64,000 nt of DNA from NCBI RefSeq assembly GCF_020880695.1, contig NZ_JAJIWO010000004.1:62001-126000 (forward strand), in the 5' to 3' direction. Position 1 is the stretch's first letter, and the number at the start of each line of letters is the position of its first letter. A program made the translations under genes and the position numbers. Below, one piece after another: positions 700 through 28,659 of this stretch. This DNA comes from Mucilaginibacter sp. UR6-11. Lineage in GTDB: Bacteria > Bacteroidota > Bacteroidia > Sphingobacteriales > Sphingobacteriaceae. The notes beneath the pieces are model-generated. The model had not been told where the DNA came from, ran no database searches, and saw nothing but the letters and a program-made list of their open reading frames with translations.

Positions 700-743
700 A
701 ACAACAAGAGGTAGTTACTTATAATTACAGCTGCAAATAAGTC

Positions 744-1751: not shown

Positions 1752-1897
1752 GGGAAAATATTAACCGTTTATCTTCATGTCACTCCGCTTTCCGGCCCTT
1801 TTTGCAGTGAAAAAAAATATACGCATCTTAATTTAAGCATACTTTATCAGTGCGAATCCCGTTTTTATTAAACAGGAATATATTTTTGTTATACAAC

Positions 1898-1928
1898 TTG
1901 TTGGAATAATAATATATACCTAAATTTG
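1898..1928 (+). promoter_or_regulatory. Bacteroidota-type promoter for the PAS histidine kinase
   Basis: TTG at 1898-1900 (-33 element) is followed after 20 nt by TAAATTTG at 1921-1928, which matches the -7 consensus TAnnTTTG exactly. A second -7 match, TATTTTTG, lies at 1881-1888. Transcription would begin near 1935, about 90 nt before the start codon at 2027. Confidence 0.5.
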
Positions 1929-2012
1929 ATAGGATAATTGCTGCCAGTATAGCGAATCTTTGATCATAGCCCCGGCAACCCGGCGTGACGGTACGCCAGC
2001 GACAGCGCTAGT

Positions 2013-2050
2013 AATAATTTTAAATTATGTTATCAAATAATTTTAAATTA
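2013..2050 (+). repeat. 15-bp direct repeat straddling the kinase start codon
   Basis: AATAATTTTAAATTA occurs at 2013-2027 and again at 2036-2050. The first copy ends on the A of the ATG at 2027 and the second lies inside the first eight codons. Pairing or slippage here could affect initiation. Alternatively, the real start could be the in-frame ATG at 2078 or 2084. Confidence 0.6.
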
Positions 2051-3616
2051 GCGCCTAAACGTAAAAGACTTCCGGCCATGACGATGACCGAACACCGAAT
2101 CTCTCTGCTCAACTTTTATGAACAGTTGCCGGTCGCAGTTTATGTCTGCAACCGCAATGATGAACTGGTGGAATACAACTTGGCGGCAGCATCCCTGTTC
2201 GGCGTGACGCCATTAACCGGCAGCAGGGATTGGTATCCGTCTTTCAAAATACTCGACCATGAAGGGCACCAGATCGGTACCGGTCACAGACCGGTAACAA
2301 ACGCGATTAAGACAAATCCTGGAAGTCACCGGCGGGAACTTCGCTTCCGGCTGCCGGATGGTACTGACCGGTATATCCTGGTTTCCTCGGTAGCGATCCG
2401 CGATGGGGCCGGCGATTATGACGGCGCCATCCATACACTTAGTGATATCACTGCACAGCACAGTTCAGAAAGTCAGCAGTCTCTGCTGGCCGCTATCGTC
2501 GATTCATCCGAGGACGCCATTATAGGCAAGGACCTGGATGGGAACATAACCAGTTGGAACCGGGGCGCTGAACGCATATTTGGCTATACCGCCGCCGAAG
2601 CTATTGGGCAACACGTCAACCTGATCATTCCCGAAGAGCGGCTGGCGGAAGAAACCCGGATCATTAAGGCTATCCGTGAAGGCAAAAAGGTGGAACATTT
2701 TGAGACCATCCGGCGGACAAAGGCCGGGAAGGCTATTCCGATCTCACTAACGATTTCACCCGTGCGCGACGCTTCGGGCCGGATCACCGGCGCATCTAAA
2801 ATCGCCCGCGACATCACCCGGCAGAAACAGGTTGAGGAACAGGTTATCGCCTATACCAGCCACCTCGAAGATATGGTTGCACAACGCACTGCTGAACTTG
2901 ACCAGGCTCTGCAAAAAGAGCGGGAACTGGGTCAGTTAAAAAGCCGCTTCGTATCCATGGCCTCTCATGAGTTCCGGACGCCGCTTAGTTCAGTTAAACT
3001 TTCAGCCTCGCTTATTGAGAAATATGCCCAACCCTATGCAGACCAGCATATCGCCAAACATGTCAGCAAAATCAAGAACTCCGTTAATGACCTCTCGGCG
3101 ATCCTGGGCGATTTTCTGTCGCTGGAAAAACTGGAATCCGGGAAGATCAACGTTTCACTGACCGAATTCGACCTGCCGGAATTTTGCCAGGAAACCACTG
3201 GCGAAATGCAGTTGCTGGCCAAGCCGGGGCAACAGATGGTTTACAGGCATTCAGGGACATCAGACCGCGTAATACTTGACCAGCACTTACTCAAGAACTG
3301 CCTGCATAACCTTTTGTCTAACGCGATCAAATATTCCGGCGAAAACACACTCATCCGCCTGGATACGGAACTCAACACGGAGGAATGCCGCCTGTCAGTA
3401 GCTGACCAGGGGATCGGTATTCCGGAAGCGGATAAGCCACATTTGTTCAGCGCCTTTTTTCGCGCGGGCAATACCGGTACCATCCAGGGTACAGGGCTTG
3501 GACTGAATATTGTTGCCCGTTATGCTAGTCTGATGGGCGGATCGGTCGATTTTGAAAGCCGGTGCGGGCAGGGTACCACGTTTAGCTTATATTTTCCGCA
3601 ACCGCCGTACCAATAA
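2027..3616 (+). CDS. PAS-PAS hybridless sensor histidine kinase
   Basis: This 529-residue soluble sensor kinase has no membrane segment. The order is PAS1 (about 25-145), PAS2 (about 155-275, with 'DGNITSWNRGAERIFGY' and a PAC segment), a short coiled linker, HisKA with phospho-acceptor His314 (SHEFRTPLS), and a HATPase_c domain with N (NLLSNAIKYS), G1 (DQGIGIP) and G2 (GTGLGLNI) boxes. It has no receiver domain, so it must phosphorylate a separate regulator. The single-receiver Crp-type regulator at 5368-6420 is the nearest candidate. Its kinase core is a close paralogue of the membrane kinase at 6644-7624. The signal is unknown, and no haem or flavin ligand could be assigned by eye. The start at 2027 is plausible but the ATG at 2078 is possible. 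Confidence 0.95.
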   Translation: MLSNNFKLAPKRKRLPAMTMTEHRISLLNFYEQLPVAVYVCNRNDELVEYNLAAASLFGVTPLTGSRDWYPSFKILDHEGHQIGTGHRPVTNAIKTNPGSHRRELRFRLPDGTDRYILVSSVAIRDGAGDYDGAIHTLSDITAQHSSESQQSLLAAIVDSSEDAIIGKDLDGNITSWNRGAERIFGYTAAEAIGQHVNLIIPEERLAEETRIIKAIREGKKVEHFETIRRTKAGKAIPISLTISPVRDASGRITGASKIARDITRQKQVEEQVIAYTSHLEDMVAQRTAELDQALQKERELGQLKSRFVSMASHEFRTPLSSVKLSASLIEKYAQPYADQHIAKHVSKIKNSVNDLSAILGDFLSLEKLESGKINVSLTEFDLPEFCQETTGEMQLLAKPGQQMVYRHSGTSDRVILDQHLLKNCLHNLLSNAIKYSGENTLIRLDTELNTEECRLSVADQGIGIPEADKPHLFSAFFRAGNTGTIQGTGLGLNIVARYASLMGGSVDFESRCGQGTTFSLYFPQPPYQ

Positions 3617-3707
3617 ACGAAAATCCCCCGGAAACTTCCATAAGTACCTTGTCCCTGGCCCGGCTCTTGCCACAGATGCAGGTTCTGAGCAGCAGCAGCT
3701 TTTCACG

Positions 3708-3750
3708 TGATCCCGATCATTCATTTTCACCGGCCAGCCTGCGATCTTTG
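3708..3750 (+). promoter_or_regulatory. FNR-like box plus -7 element of the L,D-transpeptidase gene
   Basis: TGATCCCGATCA at 3708-3719 is a perfect TGAT-N4-ATCA palindrome, the core of an FNR site. After exactly 23 nt comes GATCTTTG (3743-3750), one base from TAnnTTTG. The expected start point near 3756 puts the box centre at about -42, the class II activator position, with a leader of only a few bases before the ATG at 3761. No -33 element was seen, which fits activator dependence. Confidence 0.55.
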
Positions 3751-3760
3751 AGCTTAGCTC

Positions 3761-5371
3761 ATGCAACAACCGGCTCGCATATCGATACTTATGGCACTGG
3801 TCAGTTTGGGCCTCTCCTGCAATAGTTGTGGACAGCAGCCGAACAGGAAGACCGCAGCCGGAGTGCTGAGCCGTGACATGACGGTGCCCGGTAACTTTAG
3901 CGGCCAGTCTGAAGTTGTTTTTGACAGTACGCAGATTGCCCCGTTTTTAAAACGTTACCCGGCTTTCCAAACCTATGCCGGAGAGATCGATCGTTTTTAT
4001 CATAACCGCAACTATGCCTATGCCTGGTTTGAAAATGGGGCACTGATTGAGCAAGCCGGTAATTTAGTCAACCGCATGCTTAACCTGGCGAACGAGGGCA
4101 TCGCTCCGCCCGCCCCTTATCCGAAGGAACTGGACTCACTGATTCATACCTGGACCAAAGGAAAACCCGATCTCCGAACAGAATTAATGCTAACCGCACA
4201 GTATTTTGTTTATGCGCGGCTGGCCTGGCAAGGCCTTGGCCCAGCAGTTAGCCGGTCCGCAGGTTGGTATCTCCCCCGTAAAAGGGTAGACTATGCTACT
4301 TACCTTGATAGCCTGTTAAAAGCGCCGGCAACGCCCGAGCCCGTTTATCGTCAATATGATTTGCTGCGTTCTTTCCTGAGGAAATACCGCAACCTGGACG
4401 AACAGTACCGCTGGGACAAACTTCCGATGCCTTTAAAAAGCCTGCGGCCCGGCGATACAGCGGCCGTCATCCCATCCGTCAGGGCACGTTTACATCACCT
4501 CGGGGACCTACGGGGCGATACGCTCAGTACAGCATTGAATTTGGAACTGCAAACCGCCCTTCGTCAATTTCAGGCACGGCACGGACTGGATACGGGCGGC
4601 TTGCTGACAAAAGAAACCATGGCCGAATTAAATGTACCGCTAAAAAGCCGCATTGAACAACTTATGGTTAATATGGAGCGCAGTCGCTGGCTGCCCGTCC
4701 GCCTGGATGCAGATTACCTCGGGGTCAATATCCCGGAATTCAAGCTCCACGTTTACCATGCAGACAGCCTGTTATGGAGCTGCAATGTGGTAGTTGGCCA
4801 AACAGTGCACCCTACCAGTGTATTTTACGGCGAAATAAAATATGTCGTGTTCAGCCCTTACTGGGATGTCCCTCAGAGTATTGTCCGTAAGGAGATCCTG
4901 CCGGCAATGAAAAAACACCCGGACTATTTGGCGGCCCACCACATGCAAATTACCGGCTATGCAGCGGGCCTGCCGGTAATCCGGCAACTTCCGGGGCCGG
5001 ACAATTCCCTTGGGCTGGTTAAGTTCCTGCTTCCAAACAGCTTCCATATTTACCTGCATGACACACCGGCCAAATCTTTATTCGGTGAAACCGCCCGCGC
5101 GTTTAGCCATGGCTGCATCCGCGTGCAGGAACCGGCCAAACTTGCCGCATTCCTGTTAAATGGACAGCAGGGCTGGGATGCCGAAAAGATCAGGCAGGCG
5201 ATGCACGCCGGGAAGGAACGATATGTGACACTTCCCCGAAAGGTCCCGGTCTTTATTGCCTACCTCACCGCCTTTACGGACCGGAACGGGCGGCTAAATT
5301 TTAGGAAAGATATCTATCAGCTTGATAAAGAGTTGGCAAGTATGCTTCTGATTAAAACTGTTGATTATTAA
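3761..5371 (+). CDS. L,D-transpeptidase, YcbB/LdtD-like
   Basis: This 536-residue secreted or lipid-anchored peptidoglycan enzyme forms 3-3 cross-links or attaches proteins to murein in the periplasm. A short hydrophobic N-terminus (SILMALVSLGLSC) ends in cysteines, but the lipobox is atypical. A scaffold domain follows (about 45-220), then a peptidoglycan-binding helical repeat (about 240-300, 'LRQFQARHGLDTGG'), then the YkuD catalytic domain (about 325-480) with the SHGCIRV motif and nucleophile Cys near residue 450. Length and order match the YcbB group. The stop overlaps that of the convergent regulator gene. The upstream FNR-like box suggests that cell-wall remodelling belongs to the island's stress response. 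Confidence 0.93.
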   Translation: MQQPARISILMALVSLGLSCNSCGQQPNRKTAAGVLSRDMTVPGNFSGQSEVVFDSTQIAPFLKRYPAFQTYAGEIDRFYHNRNYAYAWFENGALIEQAGNLVNRMLNLANEGIAPPAPYPKELDSLIHTWTKGKPDLRTELMLTAQYFVYARLAWQGLGPAVSRSAGWYLPRKRVDYATYLDSLLKAPATPEPVYRQYDLLRSFLRKYRNLDEQYRWDKLPMPLKSLRPGDTAAVIPSVRARLHHLGDLRGDTLSTALNLELQTALRQFQARHGLDTGGLLTKETMAELNVPLKSRIEQLMVNMERSRWLPVRLDADYLGVNIPEFKLHVYHADSLLWSCNVVVGQTVHPTSVFYGEIKYVVFSPYWDVPQSIVRKEILPAMKKHPDYLAAHHMQITGYAAGLPVIRQLPGPDNSLGLVKFLLPNSFHIYLHDTPAKSLFGETARAFSHGCIRVQEPAKLAAFLLNGQQGWDAEKIRQAMHAGKERYVTLPRKVPVFIAYLTAFTDRNGRLNFRKDIYQLDKELASMLLIKTVDY

Positions 5372-6420
5372 TTTTTCATCCGTTCCAGGCGCTGTGGGTC
5401 AAGTACCTGGATCAGGCTGCCGTTTCTTTCGATCAGCCCCTCGCTCCTGAAATCTGATAAGGTGCGACTAACCGTTTCGGTGGCCATACCGGCGAGTGCG
5501 GCAAGGTCCTCCCGCGAGATCCGCAATCCTTCTTCAACCGAATCTGTCTGGCGATATAGCCGCAAAATGGCCTCCGCCAGCTTTTTGCGGACAGAATGAT
5601 AAGCCAGTTGCAGTAATAGTTCTTCTTTCTCCCGCAGCTGAACTGCCATCAATTTGATAAACTGGCGGGCCACGTCGGGATATAAATTCAGCATTTCTTC
5701 CAGCTGTTCTTTAGGGATCAGGCAAACCTGGCTGTCTTCCAGTGCAATGGCGGTTTCTGCGTAGGCCTCATCAGCCAGCAACGCCTGTATGCCCAGGTAC
5801 TGATCAGCCGTATGCAGAGCGGTGATCAGTTCACGCCCGTCCTCTGCCAATTTACTGGTTTTTATTTTCCCGCTAAGCACAATATAAAGTCCGTTCCCCT
5901 TGTCGCCTTCATAATAAATAACCTGGTTCTTTTTAAAATGCCGGGTTTTTCGCTCCCGGATGATCCGCTGCAGCTCTGCCAGGCCATTGTTCCGCGCAAC
6001 CAGGCGGCCCAGTTCTTCCATAGCATGGCTGTAATATTCCTTTTGCTGTTCTTTCTTTTTTAGCCGGCTTTCAATAGCGTTTAGTAGCTCAACATCGTCG
6101 AATGGCTTGGTTAGGTAATCGTCGGCACCCATTTCCATTGCTTTACGCAGATCAACCCGGTCGGTCTTGGCAGTCAGGAAAATAAAAGGGATGTTAGCCG
6201 TTTCGGGAGTTTTCCCCAGCAGGTGCAAGACACCGTAACCATCAAGTTCAGGCATCATAATATCGCAAAGAATTATGTCTGGCAGATGCACCCTGGCCAT
6301 TTCTATCCCTTCTTTGCCATTACTGGCTGCATAGACCGTATGACCGGCCAGTTCCAGTATTTCCACGACGCCCTCCCGGATGTCAGCGGTGTCTTCAACG
6401 ATCAGAATTTTAATGCTCAT
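5368..6420 (-). CDS. Response regulator with Crp/Fnr-type output domain
   Basis: This 350-residue protein joins three modules. A receiver (1-125) has acidic Asp10, phospho-acceptor Asp53 (CDIMMP), Thr82 and the K of TKPF. A cyclic-nucleotide-fold domain (about 155-275) follows, then a Crp-type winged helix (about 278-345). The recognition helix reads TETVSR, so Glu315, Ser318 and Arg319 form the E-x-x-S-R pattern that FNR uses to read TTGAT/ATCAA. CRP itself uses R-E-x3-R. FNR's four iron-sulfur cysteines are absent; only Cys52 and one other Cys exist. The phosphate-binding cassette is not CRP-like, so cAMP is an unlikely ligand. I infer control by phosphorylation from the two neighbouring kinases. 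FNR-like palindromes in several island promoters are its likely targets. Confidence 0.95.
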   Translation of the reverse strand: MSIKILIVEDTADIREGVVEILELAGHTVYAASNGKEGIEMARVHLPDIILCDIMMPELDGYGVLHLLGKTPETANIPFIFLTAKTDRVDLRKAMEMGADDYLTKPFDDVELLNAIESRLKKKEQQKEYYSHAMEELGRLVARNNGLAELQRIIRERKTRHFKKNQVIYYEGDKGNGLYIVLSGKIKTSKLAEDGRELITALHTADQYLGIQALLADEAYAETAIALEDSQVCLIPKEQLEEMLNLYPDVARQFIKLMAVQLREKEELLLQLAYHSVRKKLAEAILRLYRQTDSVEEGLRISREDLAALAGMATETVSRTLSDFRSEGLIERNGSLIQVLDPQRLERMKN

Positions 6421-6441
6421 ATCCGGATATTAGCAATTACG

Positions 6442-6475
6442 TGATTTAAATCATCCACCTATCGCGCCAAAATTA
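6442..6475. promoter_or_regulatory. FNR-like box and -7 element between regulator and kinase genes
   Basis: TGATTTAAATCA at 6442-6453 is a perfect TGAT-N4-ATCA palindrome in the divergent gap. On the minus strand, TAATTTTG (complement of 6468-6475) matches the -7 consensus for the regulator gene and places its start near 6461. The box would then lie at about +14, a repressing position, which suggests autoregulation. It could also act on the kinase gene to the right. Confidence 0.5.
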
Positions 6476-6520
6476 TAGAAGTCAGGCCTGAAAAAAAATG
6501 ATCGCCGGCACATTCGCGGC

Positions 6521-6532
6521 TGATCGTCGTCA
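6521..6532. promoter_or_regulatory. Relaxed FNR-like box upstream of membrane kinase
   Basis: TGATCGTCGTCA fits the relaxed pattern TGAY-N4-RTCA. It lies upstream of the kinase reading frame. A weak -7-like GTTGTTTG occurs at 6546-6553, only 13 nt away, so the geometry differs from the other boxes and the assignment is tentative. Confidence 0.3.
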
Positions 6533-6643
6533 GGAAAGGATGTCGGTTGTTTGTCTTTAAAGATGATGAAGATTCTGCTCCGGCTTGTTAACAATCATTT
6601 CACAACCGGGAAGGAGCCGCTAAATTGTGCAAATAAGAAATAT

Positions 6644-7624
6644 ATGAAGAATAAAGAATTTGAAAGCAAATCAGTCCAGGATCCAAACGGCCGCCGAAAC
6701 AGTATATTATATCGTTTCCGCTTACTGTTTTACACCGGTGCTGCTGTATCTGTCGTTTTGGTAGCGATAATAGGGGTAATCTCTTATGCCTCCCTCAACC
6801 GGGAGCAAGCCGGCGGCATCAAGCTTATTGTAGCCGCAGGTACGCTCTCGGTGTTGGCGATCGTTGCCTTTTTGGTCTATATCGTCCTGAACGAGCTGAA
6901 CAGCCGATTTCAGGCCTATCAACAAGAGCATGAGCTAAATCAACTGAAAAGTAATTTCATCACCCTGGCCTCGCATGAATTCCGAACGCCCCTAAGCTCG
7001 ATCCTTCTCTCGACAGCGCTGGTAGAAAAATATGCAAACCAGCAGGACCTCGGAAAGGTTGCAAAACATAGCGTCAAAATCAAACAGGTAGTGCATAACC
7101 TGGAAAATATACTGGAAGATTTCCTGGCGCTCGAAAAGCTGGATGCGGGAGAGATCAGCGCGAACTGTGTTCCTTTCGATTTGCCGGCCTTGTGCCGGGA
7201 GATCATAGCCGAAACCAGGCTCTTGTCGAAGGCCGGCCAGCAACTCAGCTATGAACAAACCGGCAGTTGCACAATGGTCTCGCTGGACAGGCAGCTGATC
7301 CGCAACGCGGTTAACCACCTGCTCTTCAACGCCATTACTTATGCAGGCGAAAACGCCAGGATCCGCCTGATTACGGCTATCAGTGACGGGCGCCTAAGTA
7401 TCTGTGTCAAAGACAACGGCTTGGGTATTGCCGAAAAAGACCAGGAAAAATTATTTACGATATTCTACCGGGTTAATGAATCGGGCAATATCCCGGGAAC
7501 CGGCCTGGGATTGGCGATCGTGAAACGCTATGTGGAGCTTATGAACGGTAAGTTGCGTTTTTACAGCAAACCGCAGGAAGAAACGTGTTTTGAAATGATG
7601 TTTCCTATATCTGGTTCTGCCTGA
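6644..7624 (+). CDS. Membrane sensor histidine kinase
   Basis: Two membrane segments (about residues 20-45 and 55-78, numbered from the ATG at 6644) have only a very short loop between them. HisKA follows with phospho-acceptor His111 (LASHEFRTPLSS), then HATPase_c with N, G1 (DNGLGIA) and G2 (GTGLGLAI) boxes. There is no periplasmic sensor domain and no PAS, so the signal is probably sensed in or near the membrane. The core aligns well with the PAS kinase at 2027-3616; both carry EKYA and a DFL-x-LEKL-(E/D)-(S/A)-G motif. The gene diverges from the Crp-type regulator, its likely partner. The frame is open back to TTG 6551 (ATGs at 6563 and 6566). I prefer 6644 because the upstream peptide looks non-native, but this is uncertain. 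Confidence 0.9.
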   Translation: MKNKEFESKSVQDPNGRRNSILYRFRLLFYTGAAVSVVLVAIIGVISYASLNREQAGGIKLIVAAGTLSVLAIVAFLVYIVLNELNSRFQAYQQEHELNQLKSNFITLASHEFRTPLSSILLSTALVEKYANQQDLGKVAKHSVKIKQVVHNLENILEDFLALEKLDAGEISANCVPFDLPALCREIIAETRLLSKAGQQLSYEQTGSCTMVSLDRQLIRNAVNHLLFNAITYAGENARIRLITAISDGRLSICVKDNGLGIAEKDQEKLFTIFYRVNESGNIPGTGLGLAIVKRYVELMNGKLRFYSKPQEETCFEMMFPISGSA

Positions 7625-7667
7625 CATTGACAAAGCAATGTAGCATCACCATATTTCGATAGCGACA

Positions 7668-8246
7668 TTATACCGGCCGCCTTCTTTTAAACACCCAGTA
7701 CAGCCCTTTAACATTGGCCTCCCATTGCGGCAGCACCAGCGCCAGCAGGATCTCTTCAACCAGGTCAATGATGGTGGCACCGGCGGTCAGGTAAAACAAT
7801 GGCAGCACAGGTTTCGGTAAAAAGAAAAACAGCATCAGAAAACCACCCTGCAGCACGGCGGCCAGTTTAGCAGCATAGGTATGAAAACTGGTTAGCTTGC
7901 GATAACGGATCAGTGCGATGCCGTTTTGCGTTGCGTACAGCAGTATCATCACGCCAATTAACAGCCATTCACTGCGTAAAAAAACCGGCTGGTACAGGAC
8001 AATCCCGATGATTGCCACCAGGATGGTCAGATCGTCCGCTACCGAATCCATGCGGGCGCCCAGCAAACTGTTAACTTTAAACTTTCGCGCCAGCCAGCCG
8101 TCAATGGCGTCTGTAAAAAAACTCAGGGCCAGCAGCCATTTAAAGGCAGCGAATTGCCGGCCAATCAGCAACAGTACCAGAAATGGCGCGGCTGCCAGCC
8201 GATAAAAGGTGATCATATTCACCCATCTATAGACTTTTTTATTCAT
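7668..8246 (-). CDS. CDP-alcohol phosphatidyltransferase
   Basis: This 192-residue integral membrane enzyme transfers a phosphatidyl group from CDP-diacylglycerol to an alcohol such as glycerol phosphate, inositol phosphate or serine. The family signature is complete: D-x2-DG-x2-AR-x8-G-x3-D-x3-D, read in DAIDGWLARKF and GARMDSVAD. About six hydrophobic segments fit the fold. The ATG at 8246 overlaps the stop of the preceding cdsA-like gene as ATGA, so translation is probably coupled. A longer in-frame start at 8273 would lie deep inside cdsA and is rejected. The acceptor alcohol cannot be read from the sequence. Its position after a Usp and CdsA suggests stress-adapted phospholipid synthesis. 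Confidence 0.92.
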   Translation of the reverse strand: MNKKVYRWVNMITFYRLAAAPFLVLLLIGRQFAAFKWLLALSFFTDAIDGWLARKFKVNSLLGARMDSVADDLTILVAIIGIVLYQPVFLRSEWLLIGVMILLYATQNGIALIRYRKLTSFHTYAAKLAAVLQGGFLMLFFFLPKPVLPLFYLTAGATIIDLVEEILLALVLPQWEANVKGLYWVFKRRRPV

Positions 8247-9064
8247 CGCTCCAGCAAAATTACAAAAACACAAATAAAAGGTGCAGAACCCAGCAAACTA
8301 TCGAACCGGTCAAGCATCCCGCCGTGGCCGGGCAAAATGGTGCCGGAATCCTTAACTCCCCGGCTCCGTTTTAACATCGACTTGAGCAGGTCGCCATAAG
8401 TGCCGGTCACTACGATAATAAACGAAAGAATTTCCCATTCTGTTGTACTTAAAACTGTAAAATACCGGGAGAGGAACGAAGCCGTAACTAAGGCTGCCAC
8501 TGCACCGCCAAAACTGCCCTCCCAGGTTTTTTTGGGCGAGATCCGTCTAAACAACGGCTGCCTCCCCAGTTTCCGGCCAACCAGGTAAGCCGCTGTATCA
8601 TTTGCCCACAACAACAAAAAACAACCCATAGGCAGCTCGAAGTGATAGCCGGCCTGCGCAGATAAAAAAGGCAGAGCGATAAAAAAACAAAGGGGCAGAG
8701 CGGTCGCGGTGATCCCCAAAAACGTGAGCGCCAGGCTTTCAAACGGAAATTTTGCCCGTCGCCGGTAAAGTTCAGCTACAAAAACACCAAAAGCAACCGG
8801 CACATTTATTAACAACCATTTCCAGCTGAATAGTCCCGAGGCGGCCGCAAAGCAAGTAAGGATCAGGCTGGTGGCCAGCAATATCCCCCATCCGGGCGCA
8901 GGCCGGGCGCCGGGTATTTCAAGTAGCTGATAAAATTCCCGGAGGCAAAGCATGGCAATCAGCAGTACCAACGCCGCGAAACTGTATGGGCCGAACCAAA
9001 CGGCAGCCAGGATCACGGTGACAAGCCCGCTCCCGGTAAGCGTGCGGCGGATAAAATTAGTCAT
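8243..9064 (-). CDS. cdsA: Phosphatidate cytidylyltransferase (CdsA family)
   Basis: This enzyme makes CDP-diacylglycerol from phosphatidic acid and CTP in the inner membrane, providing the substrate for the enzyme encoded just downstream. The protein is about 273 residues with many hydrophobic helices. The family signature is intact near the C-terminus: SMLKRSRGVKDSG followed by LPGHGGMLDRFD. A second conserved stretch, PKKTWEGSFGG, lies near residue 165. Two ATGs (9070 and 9064) are possible; both overlap the 3' end of the upstream Usp gene at 9057, so the three genes form one tightly coupled operon. It may be a second, island-borne copy alongside a housekeeping cdsA elsewhere, which cannot be tested here. 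Confidence 0.94.
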   Translation of the reverse strand: MTNFIRRTLTGSGLVTVILAAVWFGPYSFAALVLLIAMLCLREFYQLLEIPGARPAPGWGILLATSLILTCFAAASGLFSWKWLLINVPVAFGVFVAELYRRRAKFPFESLALTFLGITATALPLCFFIALPFLSAQAGYHFELPMGCFLLLWANDTAAYLVGRKLGRQPLFRRISPKKTWEGSFGGAVAALVTASFLSRYFTVLSTTEWEILSFIIVVTGTYGDLLKSMLKRSRGVKDSGTILPGHGGMLDRFDSLLGSAPFICVFVILLER

Positions 9065-9926
9065 GACCATGGGAGGTTTCGGGGAAGATCAACAGCGGAA
9101 GTGTTCCCAGTTTGATCGCTTCTTTTAAGGGATTTTCATGGAATAGGTGGTAAAAACCAGGATGTTTTTGATACCGCAACGCAATCAGATCCGTTTGCTG
9201 GTCTTCGCTGGTTTTTTTCAACGCCGCCAGGGTGTTCGCGCCCCTGGCCGGGTAGTACCGGATTGCCGGATTAAGGCTTGTTATCTTTTCAATAAAGGCT
9301 GAGACCCGTATTTCTTCCGCAAAATCCGGGATCAGTACCGGCCGGGATACGTGGGTCACGCTGATCTGGACCTTTAAGCGGTTACAAAGACTGATCAGTT
9401 CGTTTAGCACTTTTTGATCTTCCTCCGCCAGGTCAGTTGCAAACAGTATATGCCTGATCTCACGCCGGTTCCAGGTTGCGGGTATAATAAGCACCGGTCT
9501 GACAGCTAGTTGAAGAACCGCTTTAATATTGCCGTCAAAAAACAAGTCGCCATAGGATTGCGCCGAAACGCCCATGGTAATCATTATGCAGTTCTTTCTC
9601 CGTACCAATTGTGAAACACGCTCGGCCAACAAACCTTCCAGCGGTATTGGGCGAATGTCCGGCTTGTGGCCGGGAACAGTGAGATCCTGTAAACGTTTTT
9701 CCAGCCGCCGAACCTCCCGGTTCAGGCGGGTGGTGCTTTCGCGCCTTTTCTCTCCCGGAGTACTTAACGGTAACACGGTTAAACCCACCGATGGTAAATA
9801 AGGCGTGATGGGGTACACATTCACCAGCAGCACATCAGCGCCGAGCTTTGCAGCTATACCCAACGCGCATTCAGCCGCGCGGGCGGCACTGGCAGAAAAA
9901 TCGGTCAGGACCAGGATATTTTTCAT
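9057..9926 (-). CDS. Universal stress protein, tandem UspA domains
   Basis: This 289-residue protein has two UspA domains (about 1-145 and 150-285). The first begins KNILVLTDFSASAARAAECAL and the second 'REIRHILFATDLAEEDQKVL'. The nucleotide-binding glycine signature is degenerate in both: domain 1 reads GVSAQ...FFDGN, so ATP binding is doubtful. It is the first gene of an operon with cdsA and a CDP-alcohol phosphatidyltransferase, overlapping cdsA by 8-14 nt. That ties a stress protein to phospholipid synthesis. A relaxed FNR-like box lies upstream at 9978-9989. Confidence 0.94.
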   Translation of the reverse strand: MKNILVLTDFSASAARAAECALGIAAKLGADVLLVNVYPITPYLPSVGLTVLPLSTPGEKRRESTTRLNREVRRLEKRLQDLTVPGHKPDIRPIPLEGLLAERVSQLVRRKNCIMITMGVSAQSYGDLFFDGNIKAVLQLAVRPVLIIPATWNRREIRHILFATDLAEEDQKVLNELISLCNRLKVQISVTHVSRPVLIPDFAEEIRVSAFIEKITSLNPAIRYYPARGANTLAALKKTSEDQQTDLIALRYQKHPGFYHLFHENPLKEAIKLGTLPLLIFPETSHGHD

Positions 9927-9946
9927 AGTAAACAGTAAACTCCATA

Positions 9947-9989
9947 CGAAGTTCAGTTTTATACATGTCTTTTAAAATGACAACAATCA
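9947..9989 (-). promoter_or_regulatory. Relaxed FNR-like box upstream of the Usp-cdsA operon
   Basis: TGACAACAATCA at 9978-9989 fits TGAY-N4-RTCA. On the minus strand, 23 nt further on, is GAACTTCG (complement of 9947-9954), four of six bases matching TAnnTTTG. The spacing equals that of the better boxes and would give a leader of about 14 nt before the ATG at 9926. Confidence 0.35.
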
Positions 9990-10125
9990 TATAACCAACT
10001 GATTAAGGGCAATAGCGTAAGTCCTCCCCGTCCCTACCTTGGTTATATATAATAGGTGGAAGTATCGCTTATGATTTATTACACAAGGGCCGGGCTTATT
10101 CCCGGAATTATTTAAAAATCGCAAT

Positions 10126-10611
10126 ATGTTAGGTGAACTTAATACTACTATGCTGGAAGACCTGTTAAGCACGCAACTGCTTGGCCGGATTGGCTGTCAT
10201 GCTGATGGCATCACCTATATTATACCGGTAAATTATGTTTATGAAGCGCCCTATATTTACGCTCATTCGGCAGACGGGTTAAAGGTCAGCCTGATGCGCA
10301 AAAATCCTGAAGTATGTTTCGAGGTTGACCGTGTGGAAAATTTCTTTAACTGGCAAAGCGCTGTCTGTTGGGGAACGTTTGAAGAAATTACCGGCGTGAA
10401 GGAATCGGAACAAGCCATGCAAAAGCTTATTGACCGCATCGAACCTTACCTATCCAAAGCCGAAGATGCACATCCTTCACACGGGATTGCTGACCGGGCC
10501 AGCGAAATCGGTACCAGCAAAAGACTGGTGCTCTACAGGATCCTGTTAAACAAAAAAACAGGCAGATTTGAACAAAGAGATGCCCCACCCGCTGAGACAC
10601 AGGAAGCCTGA
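10126..10611 (+). CDS. Pyridoxamine 5'-phosphate oxidase-like flavin-binding protein
   Basis: This 161-residue PPOX-type split-barrel protein is the kind often annotated as a flavin-nucleotide-binding protein. Visible family features are the N-terminal MLEDLLSTQLLGRIGC strand-helix start, IPVNYVYE and YAHSADGLKVSLMRKNP in the barrel, and CFEVDRVE followed by AVCWGTFEEI. Such proteins bind FMN or a deazaflavin and act in redox or stress responses; the actual substrate is unknown. It diverges from the Usp-cdsA operon and converges on katG, with a shared terminator between them. Confidence 0.9.
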   Translation: MLGELNTTMLEDLLSTQLLGRIGCHADGITYIIPVNYVYEAPYIYAHSADGLKVSLMRKNPEVCFEVDRVENFFNWQSAVCWGTFEEITGVKESEQAMQKLIDRIEPYLSKAEDAHPSHGIADRASEIGTSKRLVLYRILLNKKTGRFEQRDAPPAETQEA

Positions 10612-10635
10612 AAATGAGTCATGAACCTGACGTTG

Positions 10636-10673
10636 ATTAAAGAGACAGTCTCATTGAGCGCAGTCTCTTTAAT
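10636..10673. terminator. Bidirectional terminator between PPOX gene and katG
   Basis: TTAAAGAGAC at 10637-10646 pairs with GTCTCTTTAA at 10663-10672, with A-rich and T-rich flanks on both sides. It lies between convergent genes and can serve both. Confidence 0.65.
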
Positions 10674-10692
10674 TATTGCTTCTTTAAACCTG

Positions 10693-12978
<2,286 letters not shown>

Positions 12979-13126
12979 TTATTGGTTTGATAAATTGATA
13001 TTACAGGTTCTATCTGTCGTATAAAATTAAGGTACTTAAACAGCTGTTCAAAATCATTTAATTCTATACGCAATAACCAAAATCTATTAGGTGAAATGAT
13101 CTCGCTGAAGTCCCGGATCGCCGTGA

Positions 13127-13990
13127 TCATTTGACCACTATTCCGGCGGGAATGATCATTACGGGAAATTCCTGTTTTTCAAGTAACGACTTTGCATTGG
13201 AGCCATTGATCAGCCGGTCAAGCAAGCTATGTTTATCATGAACCAATACAAGCAGGTCCGAACCATTCTCTTCAACCAGCTTATTGAGCCTGTTAACCAG
13301 GTCTTTACCGCTGATGTTTTGATAGGCGATACCATCATAGTTAAATTTAGCGACATGCTTTGCAAAAGCCGCCTGCTGTGCTTCACCCCCACCTTCTTCA
13401 CCCCAAAGTTTCACATGGGTGATCTCGATCGTAAAATTAAACAAACGACCCAGCCTGGTGAGGTAATGTACTGCGTTGAGGTCGGCCTCGTCAAAATCCG
13501 TGGCAATAGTGACTTTTTTTAGACTTTTAAGCGGATGCCCGGCCGGGATGATCATTACCGGTCTGTCTGTATGATTGATCACAGATACTGTATCGCTGCC
13601 CATCAACAAATGATCCCAGGCACTGCCGGTGCGGGCACCCATGACGACCAGCTCAATAGTATCATTTTTGAGCATATCCTTTACTTGTGAGCCCAGGCTA
13701 CCCATGCCCTGGCGGCAATCAATACTTGCGCGATAGTCAGCGGTTGGTAAAGCTGCGATAAGGGGTTCCATATCTTCTTTTAAAAGGGCAAGTTTCCTTT
13801 TACTTTCATCTGCCCATAATAGTTCTTCTGCGGACCATGGATTTGTGCCATATTCGGACAATGCGGGCTGACTGACAAATGCATTTAATAAGATGAGGTT
13901 AGCGTGCAGTTTGCCGCTCAGTTTAACAGCAGCTTCGGTGATCTGGCCGGACTGGTCAGTAAAATCGGTAAGTACAAGAATCTTTTTCAT
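13127..13990 (-). CDS. Universal stress protein, tandem UspA domains
   Basis: This 287-residue cytoplasmic stress protein has two UspA domains (about 1-145 and 150-287). Domain 1 begins KKILVLTDFTDQSGQITEAA and carries VVMGARTGSAWDHLLMGS before the closing strand PVMIIPA. Domain 2 begins 'LKKVTIATDFDEADLNAVHY' and ends FPVMIIPAG. The glycine signature in domain 1 is recognisable but shifted from G-x2-G-x9-G. It lies 56 nt downstream of another Usp gene on the same strand and is probably co-transcribed with it; katG follows on the same strand. Confidence 0.95.
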   Translation of the reverse strand: MKKILVLTDFTDQSGQITEAAVKLSGKLHANLILLNAFVSQPALSEYGTNPWSAEELLWADESKRKLALLKEDMEPLIAALPTADYRASIDCRQGMGSLGSQVKDMLKNDTIELVVMGARTGSAWDHLLMGSDTVSVINHTDRPVMIIPAGHPLKSLKKVTIATDFDEADLNAVHYLTRLGRLFNFTIEITHVKLWGEEGGGEAQQAAFAKHVAKFNYDGIAYQNISGKDLVNRLNKLVEENGSDLLVLVHDKHSLLDRLINGSNAKSLLEKQEFPVMIIPAGIVVK

Positions 13991-14046
13991 TTTAAGTACC
14001 TTTTATATTGAACGTTCTATTATTAAAAAGCCTCATCACCCATGGT

Positions 14047-14910
14047 TTAACGGGCTACTTTTCTGTTGATTACCAATAAAGGAACTGACATTTTACCAGC
14101 GGCCTTTTGCGTGTGACTACCTTTAAACAGCTGGTCGAAAAAGCCGTGGTCACGATGTGCCATGGCGATCAGATCGATATGTGCGTGTCCGACCAGCCAG
14201 CTCAAGCCATCTTCAACACGGTTGCTTTTTACCACCTGATAACTTACTTCCTGATGATCAAGCCCGGCCGTTATTTCGGTTAATAACTGATTCGCGATGG
14301 TGTTGCATTCGGGATCATCATTACGCTGGTCGATATGTGCAAGCACCAACTCCGCACCCAGGGGCCTGGCAAACGCAACAAGTTCATTAATTGTTTTTAT
14401 ATCCTGACCCGGTTGTTTAAAGTCACTGGCAAAAGCAATTTTTTTTATGGGCTTAAAAGCGGCATCAGCAGGGATCAGCAGCAAGGGCCGCACAGCGCTA
14501 TCAATCATTTTCCGGCTATGGTTGCCTATCATCAGCGTTGTAAAGCCATCATTACCATGCATCCCGATCAGGATCATGTCCGCCCGGTGCGCATCCGCCT
14601 CGGCATTTACCACATCGGTCACAAAACCAGCCTCGTGCACACAAATAATTTCAGGCTGATAGCCGCCGGGGTCACCCTCGGCAATTAACCGGCATTTAAG
14701 TTTAGCCAGCTCATTATCGCTATCCTGCAGCATATCTTCATAAACATCGGCAGGCCAGGGTACCATACCCGTTTGCGGGATCTCCGCCGGAACATTCATT
14801 ACATGGCAAAGCAAAACCTTTGCTTTAAGCTGTTGGGCCAGATGATAACCATAAGTGGCAGCATGCCGTGCATTTTCGGAAAGGTCAGTGGCGATTAATA
14901 GTGTTTTCAT
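14047..14910 (-). CDS. Universal stress protein, tandem UspA domains
   Basis: This 287-residue two-domain Usp has an intact ATP-binding signature in domain 1: GMHGNDGFTTLMIGN, that is G-x2-G-x9-G. Domain 2 begins 'IKKIAFASDFKQPGQDIKTI' and ends with GSHTQKAAGKMSVPLLV. Its C-terminal half is the closest relative in the window of the truncated Usp at 1-699. It is the first gene of a minus-strand run (Usp, Usp, katG) and diverges from the patatin gene. The gap between them carries a perfect FNR-like palindrome at 14978-14989. Confidence 0.95.
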   Translation of the reverse strand: MKTLLIATDLSENARHAATYGYHLAQQLKAKVLLCHVMNVPAEIPQTGMVPWPADVYEDMLQDSDNELAKLKCRLIAEGDPGGYQPEIICVHEAGFVTDVVNAEADAHRADMILIGMHGNDGFTTLMIGNHSRKMIDSAVRPLLLIPADAAFKPIKKIAFASDFKQPGQDIKTINELVAFARPLGAELVLAHIDQRNDDPECNTIANQLLTEITAGLDHQEVSYQVVKSNRVEDGLSWLVGHAHIDLIAMAHRDHGFFDQLFKGSHTQKAAGKMSVPLLVINRKVAR

Positions 14911-14977
14911 CTCGAGCTTTTTGGTAAAGTTCTGTTATCCGCGCCGGAATAAAACTGACCCTTAACAAGCCAGGATA

Positions 14978-15020
14978 TGATCCTGATCATTTTCCGGGCG
15001 GTATAGGTTTCTCAATTTTG
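14978..15020 (+). promoter_or_regulatory. FNR-like box and -7 element, patatin/Usp divergent gap
   Basis: TGATCCTGATCA at 14978-14989 is a perfect TGAT-N4-ATCA palindrome. Exactly 23 nt later on the plus strand is CAATTTTG (15013-15020), one base from TAnnTTTG. This would start transcription near 15026, 11 nt before the patatin ATG, with the box centred at about -42. Whether the box also drives the minus-strand Usp is unclear: I see no good -7 element at the matching place. Confidence 0.55.
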
Positions 15021-15036
15021 CCGAATACAATAATTA

Positions 15037-15795
15037 ATGATTAAAGTAGGGTTAGTGTTGTCTGGTGGCGGTGCCCGCAGTGTTGCACATTTAGGCGTTT
15101 TACAGGGCCTGGAAGATTTGGGCATCCGGCCGGGGGCGATCGCCGGTGCCAGCGCGGGCGCAGTGATAGGGGCTTTATATGCGGCAGGACATTCGCCCAG
15201 GGAAATCCTTGAAACAATAAAAACAACGGCTTCTTCGGGTTTTATCAATAAGATATTCTCCGGGTCGGGGCTTTTTACCGTAGCCGGGTTAACACAACTT
15301 TTTAAAGATGCCAAGCTGCCGACTCATTTCGAAGATCTGGCCATGCCGTTATGGGTAACCGCTACCGACCTGTTAACCTGCCAGGAGATCACCTTATCAA
15401 AAGGCCCTCTTTACCAGCCGCTTATTGGCTCATGTGCTGTGCCGGGTATATTTATGCCGGTGCATTTTGACGGCGGCTATCTGGCTGACGGCGGCATCCT
15501 GGACAATCTCCCGGTGAGGGATATTCGTCCTGTATGTGAATCCCTTATTGGATCCAATGTTAATAAATTCCATCCATCTCTTTCCAGGAAAATGAGCCGA
15601 CTACAAGTGCTGGACCGATGTTTTCATTTGATAATCGCTCATCAGGTCGCCACCAGTGCAACTTTTTGTGATTATTACCTCGAACCAGATCTTCATCGGT
15701 TCCCAATGTTTGAATTAAAATATCCCGATCTCCTGTTTAAGGCTGGTTACCGGGCTGTGATGCAACAGGAAACAAACTTTTCTGACTTGCACTGA
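15037..15795 (+). CDS. Patatin-like phospholipase (RssA/YchK-like)
   Basis: This 252-residue serine hydrolase has the Ser-Asp dyad. The oxyanion loop GGGAR is at residues 10-14, nucleophile Ser39 lies in GASAG, and Asp151 in DGG (LADGGILDNLPV). The family cleaves acyl chains from phospholipids or other lipids in the cytoplasm or at the membrane. There is no signal peptide. It is a single-gene unit divergent from a Usp gene and has an FNR-like box at -42. With CdsA and the phosphatidyltransferase, it adds a lipid-turnover enzyme to the stress island. The true substrate is unknown. Confidence 0.93.
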   Translation: MIKVGLVLSGGGARSVAHLGVLQGLEDLGIRPGAIAGASAGAVIGALYAAGHSPREILETIKTTASSGFINKIFSGSGLFTVAGLTQLFKDAKLPTHFEDLAMPLWVTATDLLTCQEITLSKGPLYQPLIGSCAVPGIFMPVHFDGGYLADGGILDNLPVRDIRPVCESLIGSNVNKFHPSLSRKMSRLQVLDRCFHLIIAHQVATSATFCDYYLEPDLHRFPMFELKYPDLLFKAGYRAVMQQETNFSDLH

Positions 15796-15822
15796 CAGGC
15801 GCTTATAGCAGGAATGCAGTAA

Positions 15823-16665
15823 CTATTGATGATGCGCGATAAAAACCGGTACGTCCTCCACTGCGCTGATCAACTTGTCGGCCATACTGGTTTTAAACAT
15901 CCGTGAAACCGCGCCCCGGTTATAAGCACCCATCACCACCATAACGTTTGGCGACAATTTTTTAAGATACGTTGCAAGCGTTTGTTCCGGCTCGCCGGCC
16001 AACAGGGTGTAAGCAGCATCCGGATAATGGCAGCGGATAAATTCTTTTATGAGTTGGTCATCAGGAAGTTTTTTTAATGAAGTATCCTCCGAAACAAATA
16101 CGATCTCTGTTGGGAGCTTGCGCAGGAAAGGCATCAGGTAATTGAACATTTTAATAGCAAAAACCGAGGATGGGTGACCGTCATATAAGATCACTACCCG
16201 CTCAATGGCATGATAAGTACGCGGCAAAACCATTACCGGGCATGGGGTTCCGGCCAGCAGTTCCTTAACAAAAGGTGTTGGTTTTTCTGCCGGAAAATGG
16301 CTCAGTGTTTCTTGTGCCCCGATCAATACCAGGTCACTATAAATGCTTTCCTTCAGCAAATCGTCAATAGCAAAGCGGTCATCCTGATGGATTGTATAAT
16401 CAATGCCGGCATGCTCACAGCTTTGTTTGAACGATTCAACCGCCTGCTGCCGGGTTGCTTTGTCTTTTTCTACCAGGTGTTTCAACTTGGTTGAGGATAT
16501 GCCCTGACTACCGATCATGTCGTAGAGATTAAAACTATGATAGAGAAAATCTTCCAGGAAAACACCGGTTAGCATGGCCTGGCTTTGTGTAACCAGGTCA
16601 ATAGCATAGTCTAACGTAGCTTTTGAAAATTTCAAGCCGTCAAAGGCTGCACTGATCTTTTTCAT
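15823..16665 (-). CDS. Universal stress protein (two UspA domains, divergent)
   Basis: This protein of about 280 residues starts at ATG 16665 (MKKISAAFDGLKFSKATLDY). The open frame reaches back to 16749, but that extension would cover the promoter and is rejected. Domain 1 ends FVKELLAGTPCPVMVLP and domain 2 ends DKLISAVEDVPVFIAHH. The usual ATP-binding glycine motif is not visible in either domain, and domain 1 has a helical insertion (about 45-95) absent from the other Usps here. It belongs to the Usp subgroup that looks non-ATP-binding. An exact -7 element and an FNR-like box lie just upstream. Confidence 0.92.
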   Translation of the reverse strand: MKKISAAFDGLKFSKATLDYAIDLVTQSQAMLTGVFLEDFLYHSFNLYDMIGSQGISSTKLKHLVEKDKATRQQAVESFKQSCEHAGIDYTIHQDDRFAIDDLLKESIYSDLVLIGAQETLSHFPAEKPTPFVKELLAGTPCPVMVLPRTYHAIERVVILYDGHPSSVFAIKMFNYLMPFLRKLPTEIVFVSEDTSLKKLPDDQLIKEFIRCHYPDAAYTLLAGEPEQTLATYLKKLSPNVMVVMGAYNRGAVSRMFKTSMADKLISAVEDVPVFIAHHQ

Positions 16666-16683
16666 GATTAAAAGGTATGTAAG

Positions 16684-16726
16684 CAAAGATAGATGGGGGC
16701 GCCTATCCACGGGATGACGGCTGTCA
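16684..16726 (-). promoter_or_regulatory. Promoter with symmetric TGAC box upstream of Usp
   Basis: On the minus strand, TATCTTTG (complement of 16684-16691) matches TAnnTTTG exactly and lies 19 nt from the Usp start codon. Exactly 23 nt upstream is the palindrome TGACGGCTGTCA (16715-16726). A further related site, TGACAGGTATCA, lies at 16737-16748. The layout matches the patatin and L,D-transpeptidase promoters. Confidence 0.5.
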
Positions 16727-16833
16727 CCGCGATTAATGACAGGTATCATCTATCCGATGTACGCTAAACGCTGAGTGGTAATTTGAGTTCATAATCGCGC
16801 AAAGCGCAATACTGAGTGATTAATTCCAATCTG

Positions 16834-17271
16834 CTACTCTCCTGATCTTAAACTCTCTACCGGGTTTGCCATTGCCGCTTTAACAGACTGAAAACTTACC
16901 GTAATAAACGCAATCAACAGGGCAATAAATGCCGTCAATACAAATACCCACCATTGGATATCTATGCGGTAAGCAAAACTTTGCAGGTACTTACTCATCA
17001 TTAGCCAGGCTATGGGCGAGGCTATAATTACCGCCAACAATACCAGCTTTAAAAAGTCGGCAGAAAGCAAACCGGTTATGCTGGTTATAGAAGCCCCAAG
17101 TACCTTGCGGATACCTATTTCTTTGGTACGCTGCAGGGTAAGTAAAGATATCAATCCTAACAAACCAAGGCAGCTGATAAATATGGCAATGATGGCACTT
17201 GATGTGATCAGTTTATTTATCAATACTTCTTTCTGATAAAAATCGGCCATTTGCTCGTCCAGGAAACGGTA
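16834..17271 (-). pseudogene. C-terminal remnant of an FtsX/MacB-type ABC permease
   Basis: Only about the last 145 residues of a family that is normally near 790 residues remain. The segment reads YRFLDEQMADFYQKE into the FtsX domain with three membrane helices, RTKEIGIRKVLGAS and the terminal NPVESLRSGE, all typical of Bacteroidota MacB-like permeases. Going upstream, the frame meets a stop at 17272-17274, just before the Y-x-FLDEQ motif, and no upstream homology continues. The ATG at 17250 is internal to the old gene. It is probably a deletion scar at the edge of the stress island, and I infer it is not functional. Confidence 0.85.
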
Positions 17272-17427
17272 TTAAGCGAATGCCATTAATGCTATATCAG
17301 TTAATCCCGGCATGCACAGTCGCGTTAGTAGCAGCGTACCGGCCGCGAAGAGTCTCTGCTGTGGCCGTGCCCAACGCCTGAGGCCGTATAAGCGGATAAC
17401 CCGGGCCGCAGGCAACGCCCTTTTTTA

Positions 17428-17580
17428 AAGATTGGTATTTGAAGATTAAAGATCAGTCTTATCGCTTTGCTAACCCCTCCCTACACCCTCCCAAGGGAGA
17501 GATCCGATAGCTATCGGATCGCACAGACCGACCGCCATATCCCGCTAACCACTAATCTTTAATCTTCAACCACCAATCTT
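17428..17580. repeat. 153-bp inverted-repeat element with central palindromes
   Basis: The 26-bp ends (17428-17453 and 17555-17580) are inverted copies matching at 24 of 26 positions. Inside are the perfect 20-bp palindrome GATCCGATAGCTATCGGATC (17501-17520) and a short CTCCC-AA-GGGAG hairpin. No ORF is present. It resembles a miniature or REP-type mobile repeat. I saw no clear target-site duplication. Confidence 0.7.
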
Positions 17581-17600
17581 CATTAACAATCTCTATTCAC

Positions 17601-17608
17601 TATCTTTG
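17601..17608 (+). promoter_or_regulatory. -7 promoter element of tgt
   Basis: TATCTTTG matches TAnnTTTG exactly and lies 12 nt before the ATG at 17621. This argues against the upstream in-frame TTG at 17606, which would overlap the promoter. Confidence 0.55.
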
Positions 17609-17620
17609 CCCCTGCAAAAA

Positions 17621-28562: not shown

Positions 28563-28619
28563 GGTATTAAATTTTAATAGGTTTTAAGAATGTCTAAAAT
28601 TACCGCTATTTAAAAAGCG

Positions 28620-28659
28620 CAAAAATGACAGCAGATCGGGTTTAATCTGATATGAATCA
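28620..28659 (-). promoter_or_regulatory. FNR-like box in the gap between alcohol dehydrogenase and NDH-2
   Basis: TGATATGAATCA at 28648-28659 is a perfect TGAT-N4-ATCA palindrome outside the stress island. On the minus strand, CATTTTTG (complement of 28620-28627), one base from TAnnTTTG, lies 20 nt further on and would put the box at about -40 for the dehydrogenase. No good -7 element was seen for NDH-2. The box is flanked by ATGACAG/CTGTCAT arms. Confidence 0.5.

Follow-up and report, generated by a model that had tools for sequence, protein, structure and literature searches.

The E-x-x-S-R recognition helix is a trait of the FNR/ANR family of regulators, whose typical targets include the cbb3 oxidase, cytochrome c peroxidase and Usp proteins. 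DosR of mycobacteria is not a Crp/Fnr protein, and we know of no receiver-Crp/Fnr regulator at the lxa locus of Burkholderia cenocepacia. The former is a response regulator with a haem kinase (PMC4082495), and the gene table of its regulon includes Usp, PfkB, HspX, NrdZ and CtpF (PMC4090907); the latter is described as a cluster of Usp, heat-shock and BON-domain genes induced at low oxygen (PMC6127331, PMC9104464). Here, we analyzed 64,000 nucleotides of Mucilaginibacter sp. UR6-11 (contig NZ_JAJIWO010000004.1, positions 62,001 to 126,000; hereafter the window), in which TGAY-N4-RTCA palindromes lie around the gene for a regulator that joins a receiver to a Crp/Fnr module. To our knowledge, the response to oxygen shortage is poorly understood in the aerobic Bacteroidota that live in soil, in water and on plant roots.

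We consider it probable that these palindromes are operators of a low-oxygen-type survival regulon, activated by the receiver-Crp/Fnr response regulator together with a FixL-type kinase. We describe it as a regulon with an FNR-like box, most likely run by such an activator coupled to such a kinase; in our searches of the open-access literature, no earlier account of a receiver-Crp/Fnr regulon in Bacteroidota was recognised. As in the FixL-FixJ-FixK cascade of rhizobia, we find a predicted haem-PAS kinase, a receiver, a Crp/Fnr module (matching FixK in part and below cut-off) and a predicted cbb3 oxidase target. In contrast to that cascade, the receiver and the Crp/Fnr module form one protein, so that the FixJ step would be skipped, the operator is RTGAY-N4-RTCAY, and the promoters are of the Bacteroidota TAnnTTTG type. 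The Crp/Fnr fold, the helix, a TGAT-N4-ATCA core and the class I and class II positions are shared with FNR/ANR regulons, but the regulator described here lacks the FNR cysteine set and carries a receiver domain, and T outside the core is disfavoured in the sites. With the DosR dormancy regulon, the system has kinds of targets in common (Usp, HSP20, PfkB, ribonucleotide reductase, which is NrdZ there, and cation ATPase) but neither regulator nor operator; baeRF and Rv2629, and the erythromycin esterase and Rv2030c, may be further parallels. The Usp, heat-shock and BON-domain proteins resemble those of the lxa locus, which belongs to another phylum.

Palindromes and promoter spacing around the regulator gene

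All seven palindromes of the original prediction (3708, 6442, 6521, 9978, 14978, 16715 and 16737) were present. Across the whole window, we found 12 TGAY-N4-RTCA sites, compared to a mean of 2.74 and a maximum of 7 in 100 dinucleotide shuffles. The five further sites lie in coding DNA at 12222, 22627 and 25604 and in intergenic DNA at 28648 and 33211; that at 28648, outside the interval 3708-16748 first proposed for the regulon, fits the promoter geometry described below. Not every detail held: the sites at 16715 and 16737, supposed to be intergenic, are inside the longest open reading frame (ORF; 15823-16749), but both are upstream of the likely Usp start at 16665. The assumed odds of one perfect site per 65 kb were also too low, as 208 TGAT-N4-ATCA occur in the 4.62 Mb genome, that is one per 22 kb, or three times commoner.

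The claimed excess over chance was borne out by the window shuffles and by sampled stretches of the same genome, and it is local. In 18 sampled 20-kb stretches away from the window, relaxed sites numbered 0 in 36,753 intergenic bases and 13 in 323,247 coding bases. Near both copies of the regulator in this genome (window positions 1-18000 and the stretches L112, L139 and L140), we counted 22 sites in 7,118 intergenic bases versus 2 in 42,523 for the 18 stretches together with the remaining window DNA (Fisher p 6e-17). As several stretches near the regulator were chosen because sites were already known there, the test free of this selection bias is the class-wide comparison below. The interval 3708-16748 does hold sites, but the regulon reaches well beyond it. 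L112 (C15:42001-62000), the 20 kb directly upstream of the window, is rich in sites, with seven intergenic ones in 1.4 kb of intergenic DNA (by the strict pattern nine sites, five of them intergenic), and the island therefore extends beyond the window. Genes of this upstream part encode a LOG protein, an HSP20, a phosphoenolpyruvate (PEP) synthase, a DUF308 protein, an MlaE permease, a glucan phosphorylase, P-type ATPases and a second transpeptidase-like protein.

We compared 80 related loci, fetched with the regulator protein as query, and 20 class-wide loci, one per family from 20 families, chosen by the regulator only and paired with same-contig control stretches (n = 20). One class-wide locus (L153) is the same stretch as L049 of the 80, which leaves 19 independent loci. 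Building a motif from related loci, a check suggested with the original prediction, recovered a conserved intergenic palindrome from the 80 loci, RTGAY-N4-RTCAY, whose outer flanks are rich in A. TTGAT-N4-ATCAA, the classical FNR box, was rejected as the operator, as the outer T is depleted (6-8%) and intergenic DNA of these loci contains TTGAY-N4-RTCAA twice versus 323 TGAY-N4-RTCA. When the 256 palindromic half-sites were ranked by intergenic to coding density, TGAC came first (51 intergenic, 7 coding) and TGAT second (127 and 75) in the 80 loci; the two again took ranks 1 and 2 in the 20 class-wide loci, versus 129 and 19 in the same-contig controls. The 19 independent loci held 62 intergenic sites compared to 10 in the controls (p 3e-10). 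The conserved autoregulatory site sits before the kinase of the operon and not before the regulator: 52 of 73 kinase-regulator operons had a site between 250 bp upstream of the kinase gene and 60 bp inside it. Among L019-L048, nearly all from Mucilaginibacter, 26 loci had a site before the kinase and 19 of these kept one copy 96-100 bp upstream, with variable central bases.

TAnnTTTG is the −7 box of sigma-A promoters, at −12 to −5, in Flavobacterium psychrophilum (PMC9723704). Among 434 site-gene pairs of the 80 loci, an exact box started 51 bp after the site centre in 64 cases, 29 bp in 16, 52 bp in 11 and 50 bp in 6, compared to at most two boxes at any distance in the upstream-direction control. 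With the box at −12 to −5, the 29- and 51-bp spacings place the site centres at −41.5 and −63.5, which are the class II and class I activator positions known from work on CRP and FNR. We counted a site as fitting when its centre lay exactly 29 bp (class II) or 51 bp (class I) from TAnnTTTG with at most one mismatch, in either direction. This was the case for 207 of the 323 intergenic sites of the 80 loci (4.4% of background positions), for 45 of the 62 sites of the 19 class-wide loci (4.1%), and for 19 of 31 sites of this genome at the window start, L112, L139 and L140 (3.8% of intergenic positions). By comparison, five scrambled palindromes had a combined total of 34 sites in the 80 loci, of which 5 fitted. 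A tandem arrangement was frequent: in 49 of the 64 exact class I promoters, another site with no more than one mismatch lay precisely 22 bp further downstream. Genome-wide, the composite rule (site, 23 or 45 bp, then TAnnTTTG; one mismatch) gave 47 class I matches in this genome versus 6 in the reversed control, and 43 class II matches versus 11. Such a fixed spacing between operator and promoter is a trait of class I and class II Crp-type activators and suggests that the sites act as activator operators. The proximal (−41.5) site of the tandems was often TGAY-N4-CTCA (28 of the 64 exact class I promoters), as if the fourth base of the promoter-side half-site were free.

The regulator, its partner kinase and the predicted targets

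The window regulator combines a receiver, a cNMP-binding fold and a Crp-type helix-turn-helix, and is therefore a response regulator of the Crp/Fnr superfamily. Its receiver is intact, with the phospho-acceptor Asp (Pfam Response_reg, 5e-28); residues E9, D10, D53 and K105 were identical in 81 of 81 aligned rows and T83 in 80. The FNR-like recognition helix reported earlier amid the sites was found as E-T-V-S-R, with E315, S318 and R319 identical in all 81 rows. The 25 best NCBIfam matches were all below cut-off; Fnr ranked first, over the C-terminal part, followed by response regulators over the N-terminal part, and FixK was also among them. An FNR proper with an iron-sulphur cluster was rejected, as the protein has receiver and Crp/Fnr domains and lacks the N-terminal cysteine set for [4Fe-4S]; the only conserved cysteines are C52, in the receiver, and C233, and 74 of the 81 proteins have two or three in total. 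Nor does a CRP-type cyclic AMP (cAMP) receptor fit: Arg-Ser/Thr belongs to the cAMP phosphate cassette of CRP, and all 81 rows have Asp or Glu where the CRP Arg was aligned by eye.

The genome holds a second copy of the regulator (C12:656100-657149), 67% identical to the window copy. In a 42-row tree, the window copy grouped with one copy each of M. gossypiicola and M. endophyticus (100/100), apart from the C12 copy; M. gossypiicola has another copy outside this clade.

A histidine kinase is encoded directly upstream of the regulator in 74 of the 80 loci. In this genome, the PAS of the partner kinase at the C12 locus (L139:10916-11308) matched FixL structures (E 2.8e-34), and the alignment takes in the stretch that contains the His. 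At the positions that we take, from FixL, to be those of the proximal His and distal Arg of a haem PAS, the His was found in 71 of 74 adjacent kinases and the Arg (GRxV position) in 73 of 76 rows. Class-wide, 17 of the 20 loci hold a kinase matching the same PAS profile, 16 adjoining the regulator and one 2 kb away, and all 17 keep the His. Haem binding and oxygen-controlled activity of the partner kinase are thus predicted from its residues; an oxygen-sensing role appears well supported for the form in Sphingobacteriaceae and near relatives, and less so further out in the class.

In the usual arrangement, present at the second locus of this genome, a shortage of oxygen would lead the FixL-type haem-PAS kinase, whose gene lies directly upstream, to phosphorylate the receiver. 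A dimer of the Crp/Fnr module would then bind RTGAY-N4-RTCAY at −63.5, at −41.5 or at both, as tandem dimers 22 bp apart, and the bound regulator would activate sigma-A promoters whose −7 box is TAnnTTTG.

In the own-genome stretches, composite promoters with at most one box mismatch gave 50 site-gene pairs and 41 genes, some of which will be chance. Among the predicted targets were the cbb3 oxidase CcoNO, a [NiFe] hydrogenase small subunit, hemerythrin/ScdA, cytochrome c, a di-haem cytochrome c peroxidase, a nitroreductase and a flavodoxin. They also included a heavy-metal P-type ATPase beside CcoNO, CcoI-like to judge by its position, and an adenosylcobalamin-dependent (B12) ribonucleotide reductase with an NrdJ_Z match above cut-off. 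Two HSP20, PfkB, erythromycin-esterase-like, baeRF, YceI and Usp proteins were further members of the predicted set, and the gene immediately following the first HSP20 gene encodes a PEP synthase. Gene clusters of related loci that most frequently had a site no more than 300 bp before them included those of the kinase (52 of 82), of Usp (21 of 29), of CcoNO (16 of 25) and of a short protein carrying the catalytic domain of a 2-hydroxyacid dehydrogenase (53 of 57); BON-domain proteins stood behind sites in 11 of 29 genes, and the similarity cluster of the L,D-transpeptidase had a site before 12 of its 22 genes, the window gene counted. Overall, this set of targets predicts a low-oxygen survival regulon. 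A 595-aa protein at L140:2552-4339 (C12:666552-668339), which matched nothing in Pfam or NCBIfam at E 0.001, is a predicted member of the regulon by virtue of its exact class II promoter.

Input signal and other readers of the sites

The observations gathered in this section that concern the kinases, the DNA before the regulator gene, the control stretches, the density of the motif alone and the stand-alone proteins weigh against an oxygen-responsive regulon read by the receiver-Crp/Fnr protein, and two alternatives build on some of them. According to the first, which we regard as unlikely though worth retaining, there is indeed such a regulon, but its window copy of the regulator answers starvation, envelope or redox stress rather than oxygen. 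The two window kinases carry Glu and Asn at the haem His position, and a haem PAS was rejected for the kinase at 2027-3616, where the residue is Glu. Further out, the fuller FixL signature was missing, on our reading, in 13 of the 17 class-wide kinases, and the other four include that of L153, the repeated locus. The window targets comprise genes for the envelope and for stress (L,D-transpeptidase, patatin and Usp), and the window regulator belongs to the separate paralogue clade. However, its helix equals that of its relatives, the sites look alike, the wider predicted regulon has the cbb3 oxidase, a class II ribonucleotide reductase and hydrogenase, and a FixL-type partner kinase is encoded in the same genome. 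Under the oxygen-responsive reading, the window would hold a diverged second copy of the regulator, and since the kinases beside it lack the haem histidine, its input may differ or come from the FixL-type kinase of the second locus.

The second alternative, to which we give slightly less credit again, is that a stand-alone Crp/Fnr protein, such as that of C3 or C19, is the main reader, the receiver-Crp protein being one of several readers of a box shared in Bacteroidota. This genome has six further HTH_Crp_2 matches, three of them above cut-off. Two stand-alone paralogues that were read (C3, L141:17871-18563; C19, L143:10054-10746) have N-terminal Cys and a YETVFR helix and could share sites, but their helix has F where that of the receiver-Crp protein has S. 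A site directly before the regulator gene was found within 260 bp in only 8 of the 80 loci, seven of these sites being 182-225 bp away, and L059 offers only 16 bp of upstream sequence; on the other side, the kinase-regulator operon usually carries its own site. Among the controls of the class-wide comparison, two stretches, L169 and L181, account for five and four intergenic sites out of 10 in all, and promoter geometry was seen for 8 of these 10, so sites also exist away from the regulator. L169 and L181 are probably further regulon islands. Nevertheless, across 19 loci from 19 families the sites cluster at the receiver-Crp gene and not in most same-contig controls.

The main caveat comes from the CcoNO promoters. 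We took the 30 best-scoring of 85 genomes with CcoNO, accepting one box mismatch and a spacing one base off, and found a correctly spaced site in 28 of them, two being one base off. This was observed in 20 of 21 genomes with the regulator and in 8 of the 9 examined genomes where it was not found. All 9 of the latter encode a stand-alone Crp/Fnr protein whose helix, TATETxIR, is related, and in 8 of them it has an N-terminal C-x2-C; the extraction of stand-alone proteins covered 10 of 26 loci. As the CcoNO sites are kept without the regulator, other Crp/Fnr proteins probably read the same code, and we rejected the idea that the motif belongs to the receiver-Crp protein alone. The cis code is thus older than this one regulator or extends beyond it, and in this genome the stand-alone paralogues may share some of the regulon. 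In two Bacteroidia without receiver-Crp (G116, C20:105657 and C20:109565; G002, C111:43043 and C111:35355), ccoNO and a gene for a stand-alone Crp/Fnr protein are some 4-6 kb apart, and the ccoNO operators keep the same spacing; a regulator swap under a fixed cis code is possible there.

The whole-genome comparison of composite promoters argues against a stand-alone protein as the main reader. The regulator was called at E ≤1e-50 in 74 of 149 genomes of the class, taken to be Bacteroidia. The motif alone occurred 15.3 times per Mb with the regulator versus 12.7 without (p 0.025), a weak difference uncorrected for kinship or genome size; this density being too blunt, we used the composite of site and −7 box instead. 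Exact class I composites numbered 170 in the 74 genomes with the regulator versus 52 in the 75 without (p 4e-8), with reversed controls that also differ (28 and 12, a single genome contributing 8 of the 28), and exact class II composites 364 versus 165 (p 4e-7; reversed controls 6 and 6), both again uncorrected for kinship and genome size. Exact composite promoters are thus 2-3 times commoner per genome with the receiver-Crp protein. That a short palindrome should cluster by chance because intergenic DNA is AT-rich has, in our view, next to no probability: although perfect sites are commoner genome-wide than first assumed, the 36.8 kb of sampled intergenic DNA held none, and the shuffles, the first two ranks among 256 palindromes, the scrambled controls and the exact 29/51-bp spacing speak against it.

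The case for a broader history seems to us evenly balanced: in Bacteroidia, the FixL-FixJ-FixK cascade would have collapsed to a FixL-type kinase and one receiver-Crp/Fnr activator acting through tandem −63.5/−41.5 dimers, with a class-wide cis code that outlives replacement of its reader by stand-alone Crp/Fnr proteins and targets that converged on the DosR and lxa dormancy regulons. For work on cultured strains, the analysis predicts a master regulator and its operator, gives promoter positions to the base and lists targets. It may also have uncovered a natural example of a regulator that was fused or swapped while the cis code stayed the same. With the precision of the composite rule, candidate members of the regulon can be proposed across the class.

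Features of the window

Gene boundaries come from a simple ORF caller (Table 1). The single regulon originally drawn over the transpeptidase, two Usp units, the patatin and the regulatory genes stood in part: the transpeptidase, the patatin, one Usp gene and the regulator have correctly placed sites, but the geometry scan of the window found no correctly spaced site before the Usp units 9057-9926 and 13127-14910 or the kinases at 2027 and 6551. The same scan gave only a two-mismatch candidate for katG. The perfect site at 6442 is without promoter geometry and is not conserved in relatives; a role as an autorepression operator is possible, as a guess.

Table 1. Coordinates of sites, promoter boxes and genes in the window.
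Feature	Position	Strand	Remark
PAS histidine kinase	2027-3616	+	Glu at FixL haem His position; no correctly placed site
Site TGATCCCGATCA	3708-3719	.	Class II position (centre −41.5), L,D-transpeptidase promoter
−7 box GATCTTTG	3743-3750	+	L,D-transpeptidase promoter; 1 mismatch to TAnnTTTG
L,D-transpeptidase	3761-5371	+	Predicted target; Scaffold and YkuD, weak PG_binding_1
Regulator	5368-6420	-	Receiver (REC), cNMP_binding, HTH_Crp_2; recognition helix TETVSR
Perfect site TGATTTAAATCA	6442-6453	.	Would be +11 to +22 of the regulator transcript
−7 box TAATTTTG	6468-6475	-	Regulator promoter; promoter geometry scan
Degenerate tandem site	6499-6510	.	1 mismatch; class II position, regulator promoter
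Site TGATCGTCGTCA	6521-6532	.	Class I position (centre −63.5), regulator promoter
Histidine kinase without PAS match	6551-7624	+	Divergent from regulator; no correctly placed site
Site TGACAACAATCA	9978-9989	.	Class I position towards pyridoxamine-oxidase-like gene
Degenerate tandem copy	10000-10011	.	Promoter of pyridoxamine-oxidase-like gene
−7 box TACCTTGG	10035-10042		Promoter of pyridoxamine-oxidase-like gene
Pyridoxamine-5'-phosphate-oxidase-like protein	10126-10611	+	Predicted target
Degenerate tandem copy	14956-14967	.	Patatin promoter
Site TGATCCTGATCA	14978-14989	.	Class II position, patatin promoter
−7 box CAATTTTG	15013-15020		Patatin promoter
Patatin-like phospholipase	15037-15795	+	Predicted target
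Usp-domain protein	15823-16665	-	Predicted target; start corrected from 16749
−7 box TATCTTTG	16684-16691	-	Common to both sites before the Usp gene; 18 bp before ATG
Site	16715-16726	.	Class II position, Usp promoter
Site	16737-16748	.	Class I position, same Usp promoter; 22 bp from the 16715 site
Zinc-type alcohol dehydrogenase	27447-28562	-	Predicted target
−7 box TAATTTTA	28595-28602		Alcohol dehydrogenase promoter
Site	28648-28659	.	Class I position, alcohol dehydrogenase promoter; outside the interval first proposed

Two further features of the window were noted. A 138-aa FtsX-like C-terminal fragment (16834-17250) is probably the remnant of a longer ABC permease, and a perfect 18-bp palindrome, ATCCGATAGCTATCGGAT, occurs as a single copy in the window, in intergenic DNA at 17502-17519.

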